Shown here: one piece after another, positions 29,433 through 31,307 of the stretch
Position numbering within the stretch: the first letter of the stretch is position 1
Layout of the letters: each line of letters starts with the position of its first letter
Source: Armatimonadota bacterium
Lineage (GTDB): Bacteria; Armatimonadota; Fimbriimonadia; Fimbriimonadales; Fimbriimonadaceae
Assembly (NCBI GenBank): GCA_020161505.1
Contig: JAIUNY010000019.1
Coordinates: 1 to 59,007 of the forward strand
Length of the DNA stretch: 59,007 nt
Direction: 5' to 3'
Translations under genes and position numbers: made by a program
The notes under the pieces: model-generated
What the model saw: only the letters and a program-made list of their open reading frames with translations
Told to the model about the DNA's origin: nothing
The model's database searches: none

Positions 29433-30299
29433 TTAGAGCGGCGAGGCCTCGGACGCCCAATGCCAGAGCTTGGTCACGTTCGCCTGGTGCATCGGCACAG
29501 CATCGGGGGTTTCGACGACCATGGGAGTTTCCTCGAAGAGTGGATCGTGCACCAGGCACCGGAAGGCGGTCTCCCCGATCTCCCCCTCGCCCAGGTGGTT
29601 GTGGCGATCGACTCGCGTGCCCAGTGCCTTCTTGCTGTCGTTGACGTGGAGCACCTTGATCTTCTCGCGGCCCACCAGGCGATCCCATTCGGCAAACGTG
29701 GCGGAATAAGCCTCCGGGGTTCGGATGTCGTACCCCGCGGCGAAGATATGGCAAGTGTCGAGACAGACACCCACCCTTGGGTGATTCCCCAGAAGCTCGA
29801 ACATCGTCGCCATCTGGTCAAATCGGTAGTTGAGCGAGCTCCCTTGGCCCGCCGTGGTCTCCATAAGTACGGTGACGAAATCGGGAGTCTCGGCGAGCAC
29901 CTGGAGCAGGCTCTCCGCAGCCGCCTTCATGCCAGCCTCCTCACCTTGTGACATGTGTGCGCCTACGTGACTGACCACCCAAGGAATGCCGAGTTCATTG
30001 CAACGCAGAATCTCTCGAATCATGCCTTGGCGGCTTTGCTCGCGCTTCTCAAGATCCGGGGCGCAGAGATTGATGAGATAGCTATCGTGGCTCACAAGAT
30101 GCCGACGCTCGATGCCTGTTTCTTCCAGCGCTAAGGCGAGGGCACTGACGGCATCGCAAGTGATCGCCTTGGCTGCCCACTGCTGGGGAGAATTCGTGAA
30201 GACTTGGATCGCGGTGCACCCAATCTTGCTCCCCTCCCGAACTGCCTTGTGTAGGCCTCCGCTTGTGGGCATGTGGGCTCCGATCCATCGCGCTGGCAT
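29433..30299 (-). CDS. nfo: Deoxyribonuclease IV (AP endonuclease)
   Basis: This enzyme cuts DNA 5' to abasic sites. The 288-residue protein is a TIM barrel with the expected metal ligands: GAHMPTSGG (His), HDSYLINL, VSHVGAHMSQGEEAG, VLMETTAGQGSSLN (Glu), GVCLDTCHIFAAGYD, VLHVNDSKKALGTRVDRHNHLGEG. No strong Shine-Dalgarno precedes the ATG. It begins 23 bases after the SelW-like gene on the same strand, so both are likely on one transcript. Confidence 0.95.
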   Translation of the reverse strand: MPARWIGAHMPTSGGLHKAVREGSKIGCTAIQVFTNSPQQWAAKAITCDAVSALALALEETGIERRHLVSHDSYLINLCAPDLEKREQSRQGMIREILRCNELGIPWVVSHVGAHMSQGEEAGMKAAAESLLQVLAETPDFVTVLMETTAGQGSSLNYRFDQMATMFELLGNHPRVGVCLDTCHIFAAGYDIRTPEAYSATFAEWDRLVGREKIKVLHVNDSKKALGTRVDRHNHLGEGEIGETAFRCLVHDPLFEETPMVVETPDAVPMHQANVTKLWHWASEASPL

Positions 30300-30322: not shown

Positions 30323-30559
30323 CTATCCAGAAACGAAGGGTCGCATCGCTGCGATTGCTTCTTCGTTGCTTGGCTTCACGCCGCGACGATCGTTGTTCGT
30401 CCAGACAATCTCGCCCTGATACCGAATCTCCAGAATCCCACCGCTCCCGGGGATGTATTCAGTCTCGAGGCCGAATTCGGATTGAAACGCTGCCGCCAAC
30501 CTGGCGGCATGAGGCATATAGTTTCAGGCCTGGCAATAGAGAATCGAGATCGGCTTCAC
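30323..30559 (-). CDS. SelW-like (Rdx family) selenoprotein candidate, in-frame UGA read as Sec
   Basis: A GTG at 30559, with GGGGA upstream, starts KPISILYCQA, then TGA (30526-30524), then NYMPHAARLAAAF. Reading the TGA as selenocysteine gives a 78-residue protein with CxxU at residues 9-12. This is exactly where SelW/SelT/SelH thioredoxin-like proteins carry CxxU or CxxC after the first beta strand. The rest matches the family: helix PHAARLAAAFQSEFG, strand YIPGSGGILEI, and EIVW. A bacterial SECIS-like hairpin follows the UGA. A conventional reading would give only a 64-residue fragment starting at MPHAARLAA and lacking the redox motif. The role is thiol-redox; no selA, selB, selC or selD is in the window. 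Confidence 0.8.
30491..30526 (-). promoter_or_regulatory. Bacterial SECIS-like hairpin immediately after the in-frame UGA
   Basis: On the minus strand, UGA is followed by 14 bases and then the perfect 7-bp stem TGCCGCC / GGCGGCA with loop AGGTT. The loop begins 21 bases after the UGA. It carries GGU near its 5' side, like the AGGUCU apical loop of E. coli formate dehydrogenase mRNA that SelB binds. The spacing is within the range reported for bacterial SECIS elements. Confidence 0.72.
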
Positions 30560-30617
30560 AGAGTCATTATCCCCGAACGAGGTTGAGCCAGCCCGCGCCT
30601 TGCGCACAATAGAGGGC

Positions 30618-31307
30618 ATGGCCCTTCCGAAAGGTGCAGTCATTGGCGGAATCGTTGCCGTGCTCGTCGGCGGCGCGGTGTGGATGCAAACCCAAAGCTC
30701 CGGGTTTTCGGACGTCAAGAGCAACTCCTACAACATGAAGGACGTTCCGCGCCACCCTGTGACTGAGGCCATGGTCAGCACGGCCAAAGCCCAAAAAGGA
30801 GAACTAGCTCCGGAATTCAAGCTCCTTGATTCCGAAGGGAAAGAGCAAACCCTTGCCGGAATCCGCGGATCGAGGCCTGGAGTTCTGGTGATGACCAAGG
30901 ATGGCTGCCCCTGTAGCGTGGAGTCTCAGCCCTTCTTCAATAAGATCGCCGAGCATTTTCAGGAGCGGGTGGCCTTTCTGGGGATCATCGACGCTGATTC
31001 ACAAGCCGGCAAGAAGTATAAAACCGACTTCTCCGTACCGTATCCCATGCTCTCCAACACCGAGATCGAAGTGTTTAAGCGCTACCAGGCGAAGCAGTCG
31101 GTGTACATCTTCCTGATTTCGGCTGACGGCACCCTGGAGCATGTGTGGCCTGGATACAGCAAGTCGATGCTGGAAGATCTGAACGCGAAACTCGCGGCGG
31201 TCAGCGACATGCCGGCTGCTCAGTTGGATTTGAACATGGCCCCGGAAGAGATGACGAGCGGGTGCTACTTCTTCAAGCCGGTGGGCACCGAAGAACCCGC
31301 CTGGTAA
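30618..31307 (+). CDS. Membrane-anchored redoxin (AhpC/TSA-like) with CPC motif
   Basis: ATG 30618 was preferred to the TTG at 30600. A hydrophobic N-terminus (KGAVIGGIVAVLVGGAVWM) acts as an anchor or uncleaved signal. The thioredoxin-fold domain (about 58-205) begins GELAPEFKLLDSEGKEQTL. The redox motif is at residues 97-99 in TKDGCPCSVESQPFF, with cysteines one residue apart rather than CxxC. A cis-proline region with VYIFLISADGTLEHVWPG follows, and a C-terminal extra segment has TSGCYFF. It is divergent from the SelW-like gene with 58 bases between, which suggests a shared thiol-redox function. Confidence 0.82.
   Translation: MALPKGAVIGGIVAVLVGGAVWMQTQSSGFSDVKSNSYNMKDVPRHPVTEAMVSTAKAQKGELAPEFKLLDSEGKEQTLAGIRGSRPGVLVMTKDGCPCSVESQPFFNKIAEHFQERVAFLGIIDADSQAGKKYKTDFSVPYPMLSNTEIEVFKRYQAKQSVYIFLISADGTLEHVWPGYSKSMLEDLNAKLAAVSDMPAAQLDLNMAPEEMTSGCYFFKPVGTEEPAW

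Follow-up and report, generated by a model that had tools for sequence, protein, structure and literature searches.

The minus strand of the 59,007-nucleotide stretch of Armatimonadota DNA analysed here (contig JAIUNY010000019.1, hereafter the window) carries a SelW-like gene of the Rdx family whose in-frame UGA codon is, with a probability of about 0.96, decoded as selenocysteine (Sec). The sequence itself, the family assignment, the predicted fold, the UGA and hairpin conserved among relatives and the Sec-decoding genes of the same genome carry this reading, and Sec decoding in this organism is predicted from them. As bacterial SelW selenoproteins are already known, the novelty is mainly for the phylum: a selenoprotein and a full Sec machinery are added for Armatimonadota. 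In our literature search, neither Armatimonadota nor Fimbriimonas appeared together with selenocysteine in any paper, and the one paper found to pair Armatimonadetes with a selenoprotein had Planctomycetes genomes as its subject. The features of the locus are collected in Table 1.

Table 1. Features at the selW locus of the window
Feature	Position	Strand	Description	Evidence or remark
selW-like gene, predicted selenoprotein	30323..30559	-	78 residues, Sec12; GTG start at 30559, TAG stop ending at 30323	Translation, Pfam Rdx, fold, 38 UGA-bearing homologous genes
UGA predicted to be read as Sec	30526..30524	-	U of CxxU (C9-Q-A-U12)	Column TGA in 38/39 phylum Rdx genes, TGC in one
Standard-code fragment	30323..30517	-	64 aa, from internal ATG	Redox motif missing
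SECIS-like hairpin	30491..30509	-	7 bp stem, loop AGGUU, 14 nt past UGA	Offset, compensatory changes, loop G in 38/38 UGA genes
-10-like hexamer GATAAT	30566..30571	-	6 nt before GTG	Probable leaderless mRNA
Divergent AhpC/TSA redoxin gene	30600..31307	+	CPC motif, C-terminal TSGC	Pfam AhpC-TSA E 8.2e-12
AP_endonuc_2 gene	29433..30299	-	Xylose isomerase-like TIM barrel; starts 24 nt after selW

A UGA codon at the redox motif of an Rdx protein

Read on the minus strand, the gene begins with GTG AAG CCG ATC TCG ATT CTC TAT TGC CAG GCC TGA AAC TAT ATG, and with the UGA taken as Sec the product is VKPISILYCQA-U-NYMPHAARLAAAFQSEFGLETEYIPGSGGILEIRYQGEIVWTNNDRRGVKPSNEEAIAAMRPFVSG. The first-pass annotation had placed this UGA exactly at the U of CxxU, and both the coordinates and the translation agree with it. 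It had also anticipated that a standard annotation would list a short fragment, which is what the standard code yields; standard annotation of selW retains this fragment only, and the active site is missing.

The readthrough product matched Pfam Rdx (PF10262) with an E-value of 1.2e-11 and 45.1 bits (cut-off 22.6), and TIGR02174 (SelW/T/H) with 35.7 bits (cut-off 34.2). The solved relatives found by sequence, 3dex, 2fa8, and 2ojl, are Rdx proteins. An AlphaFold2 model built from six sequences of the genus reached a pLDDT of 91.8 with the order strand-helix-strand-strand-strand-helix, and its best PDB matches were Rdx/SelW structures, the TM score being 0.83 for 2fa8 and 0.66 for mouse SelW (2npb). 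C9-Q-A-U12 falls in the model between strand 4-9 and helix 15-29, which is the usual thiol/selenol redox site. The product is probably a small thiol-disulfide oxidoreductase with a thioredoxin-like fold, and would be redox active.

Conservation of the UGA across Armatimonadota

An Rdx gene was found in 39 of 291 phylum genomes, and in 38 of the 39 the matched stretch contains exactly one TGA, always three residues past a conserved Cys and with the start codon 9-13 codons upstream. The single gene without UGA (G062) has Cys, with the codon TGC, in the TGA column. When the readthrough translation was aligned with homologues, as the first-pass annotation had proposed, the protein proved conserved both upstream and downstream of the UGA, and the third residue ahead of the UGA is Cys; the opposite pattern, close relatives with a stop and nothing conserved upstream, had been named as grounds for rejection and does not hold. 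In G062 (G062:C22, L026), the only genome of the phylum with a Cys-type Rdx gene, a tRNA-like sequence lies about 56 nt upstream of that gene; it passes the tRNA-Sec model (55.9 bits) and is called tRNA-Cys (GCA, 92 nt) by ARAGORN.

Among the 39 genomes with an Rdx gene, selA was detected in 35; the corresponding count for the remaining 252 genomes is 107 (Fisher p 1.6e-8). The Rdx genomes in which selA was not detected (G004, G006, G070, and G209) are all fragmented drafts. G004 has a tRNA-Sec, and neither selA nor tRNA-Sec was found in G006, G070, and G209, which are 72%, 73%, and 88% complete, respectively. As SelW in this phylum is nearly always the Sec form and almost never the Cys form, the distribution suggests that the Rdx family is lost, not converted to Cys, when Sec decoding is lost. 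One member of the window genus (G156) has selA and lacks selW, and SelW is therefore dispensable.

A profile search with a set of close queries returned five named Armatimonadota loci and a single locus from Krumholzibacteriia. The named relatives in the phylum are Fimbriimonadaceae metagenome-assembled genomes (MAGs) and Armatimonadetes bacterium Uphvl-Ar1, and they assign the window to Fimbriimonadaceae. The Krumholzibacteriia locus, a close SelW-like gene in a MAG (L072 2941-3261), has the motif CVQU in the sequence CVQ-U-NYLPHAAR and an FSK-type stretch. A search of viral contigs found no relative. The window genus forms a supported clade (99/97) on a long branch together with G104, G068, and G071, and in this subclade a TNR-type stretch, e.g., WTNRxNRG, replaces the FSK...GR of other members.

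A SECIS-like hairpin conserved at the codon level

The perfect 7 bp hairpin described by the first-pass annotation, with loop AGGUU and starting 14 bases past the UGA, is present as TGCCGCC-AGGTT-GGCGGCA (30509-30491). A full 7 bp stem arises in 2.3% of synonymous recodings of the window sequence alone, and the hairpin taken singly is only moderately unlikely by chance. Comparison with relatives, 38 of 39 of which share the single TGA at the same site, lifts it far beyond chance. As free minimum-energy folding of 43-nt segments was not discriminating and did not pick out the hairpin in many relatives, we used a codon-constrained test in which synonymous codons were redrawn with local codon usage. 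The offset from the UGA was identical in all 38 UGA genes, and across them 186 of 190 cells of the five-pair core stem were paired, compared with 139 (sd 4.4, max 153 in 5000 draws) in the recoding null; the resulting z of 10.7 treats related sequences as independent and is hence overstated. All five core pairs were present in 34 of the 38 genes, compared with 5 of 38 under recoding.

The stem covaries as well, one pair being seen as C-G, U-A, G-C, and A-U and another as G-C and U-A, and loop position 2 is G in every UGA gene. A stem-loop a few nucleotides past the UGA, a G in a small loop and covariation are the marks of a bacterial SECIS, and the selW hairpin has them all. In the Cys homologue of G062, two of the five core pairs are left and the loop G is absent, which is what a role of the hairpin in Sec insertion would predict. 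An Rfam search of the locus gave chance matches below gathering scores only, none of them a SECIS.

Sec-decoding genes of the genome and alternative readings of the UGA

The genome of the window is 99.94% complete. It contains one tRNA-Sec gene (selC; 71.5 bits, anticodon TCA), the secondary tRNA-Sec matches being Leu and Ser tRNAs, together with selB (336 bits), selA (424 bits), and selD (349.5 bits). All four genes that define the Sec-decoding trait thus occur in one genome; their absence had been put forward in advance as an outcome that would have overturned the selenoprotein reading. selD has an in-frame TGA of its own near the N-terminus, MRLTHLVACAG-U-ASKLGP (L049 1500-2490; G000:C6:62822-63739), because of which selD is probably a selenoprotein gene as well.

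If the UGA were an ordinary stop and the locus a decayed rdx pseudogene or the product of a sequencing error, the 64-aa fragment without the redox motif would be all that the standard code leaves, and the loss of selW from G156 would fit such decay. However, the same single UGA stands at the same site, in an otherwise intact frame, in 38 independent genomes, coding constraint is seen on both sides of it, and codon choice preserves the hairpin; the conserved UGA already refutes this explanation, which we regard as very improbable. A variant code, with UGA read generally as an amino acid such as Trp, would also leave the frame open, as would any residue at this codon. Against it stand the tRNA-Sec (TCA), selA, selB, and selD, the use of UGA to terminate genes in this organism (the selD frame closes with TGA), and the UGA-less homologue, which has Cys and not Trp, and we give it even less credence than the pseudogene.

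The UGA might, alternatively, normally stop translation, with the hairpin tuning readthrough to selenium supply and the truncated state acting as a sensor. Bacterial decoding of Sec is dependent on the supply of selenium, and a leaderless start with so short a frame would release an 11-residue peptide. However, conservation of the downstream protein extends across the entire Rdx fold, which indicates that selection maintains the full-length product, and a sensor is in our view as improbable as a variant code. The sel genes, the conserved UGA and hairpin, and the Cys homologue support decoding as selenocysteine, as the first-pass annotation had proposed. In that case, SelB with Sec-tRNA-Sec would bind the mRNA hairpin just downstream of the UGA, and the ribosome would then insert selenocysteine at position 12.

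Start region and gene neighbours of selW

Each of the seven genus members with the gene has a -10-like hexamer exactly 6 nt upstream of its start codon (p 5e-4 versus shuffles), and this spacing suggests that the selW mRNA is probably leaderless. In a generic promoter scan, no complete -35/-10 pair was detected at selW. The divergently transcribed redoxin gene, for which the ATG at 30618 is a possible start, adjoins selW in 7/7 genus members that have selW; an MFS gene follows the redoxin wherever the locus reaches that far, and G156 has retained a redoxin. SelW and the redoxin may be functionally linked, and a review notes that elsewhere Prx genes and SELENOW-like selenoprotein genes cluster in operons (PMC13188914). 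Judged by sequence, the redoxin is doubtful as a direct electron partner, since it has a hydrophobic N-terminus and looks exported, whereas SelW has no signal peptide. On the other side, the 24-nt gap to the downstream endonuclease gene led us to consider an operon, which was rejected because relatives carry a trypsin-like protease there.

A candidate redoxin selenoprotein family with C-terminal Sec

In a search with relatives of the redoxin as queries, at least 25 genomes had a copy carrying one in-frame TGA, and selA was present in 25/25 of the genomes with such a copy. All 17 inspected loci (L084, L085, L087-L097, L099, and L110-L112) end in G-U-x-[FY]-stop, and beyond the stop codon most of them have a GC-rich hairpin whose loop is, for instance, CGGU, GGUC, or AGGUU. 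The Cys homologues, including that of the window, have TSGC and a longer tail. No NCBIfam model matched the UGA redoxins above its cut-off, and no description of G-U-x-[FY] redoxin selenoproteins was found in the literature, the coverage of which was incomplete. Other C-terminal selenoproteins, termed 'UXX-star', have been listed (PMC13188914); they belong to different families. From their sequences, AhpC/TSA redoxins with the G-U-x-[FY] ending and a SECIS-like hairpin downstream of their stop codon are candidates for a new selenoprotein family. We tentatively propose, as a possibility that we hold to be rather unlikely as a whole, that in the window genus the divergent leaderless SelW pairs functionally with the redoxin, and that this redoxin corresponds, with Cys in place of Sec, to another selenoprotein family of the phylum, apparently not yet described, which has Sec third from the C-terminus and the SECIS beyond the stop.

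Comparison with known systems

SelW-like proteins are a known prokaryotic selenoprotein family (PMC13188914, PMC9312934); they are abundant in Sargasso Sea data (PMC1088965) and have been reported in Symbiobacterium, Geobacter, and Desulfotalea (PMC1794560). The window gene resembles bacterial SelW-like members (Rdx, PF10262) in size, CxxU, fold, the single Sec and a SECIS just past the UGA, and differs by its TNR-type stretch (WTNRxNRG) in place of FSK...GR.

That such selenoproteins exist in bacteria, which the first-pass annotation took as established, is published and includes an experimental case in Campylobacter jejuni, where UGA readthrough of SelW was shown by Ribo-seq and mass spectrometry (PMC11955535). 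Similar to the window gene, C. jejuni SelW (CJnc60) has about 80 residues, was missed by annotation and has its UGA read by tRNA-Sec; its readthrough is experimental, whereas that of the window gene is predicted. The NCBIfam Campylobacter model NF041051 gave the best E-value for the window protein (1.3e-16), and the score of 60.6 bits is below the cut-off of 88 for this Campylobacter-type SelTWH equivalog.

In E. coli fdhF, the SECIS spacing is about 15 nt. The minimal bacterial SECIS has been described as a 5/6 bp apical hairpin with an invariant loop G (PMC4607533). Compared with this fdhF type, the hairpins of the phylum are likewise short, GC-rich and near the UGA, with a small loop containing G, and differ in having AGGUU or RGUYU loops on a stem of 5 to 7 bp, which in the window copy is without a bulged base.
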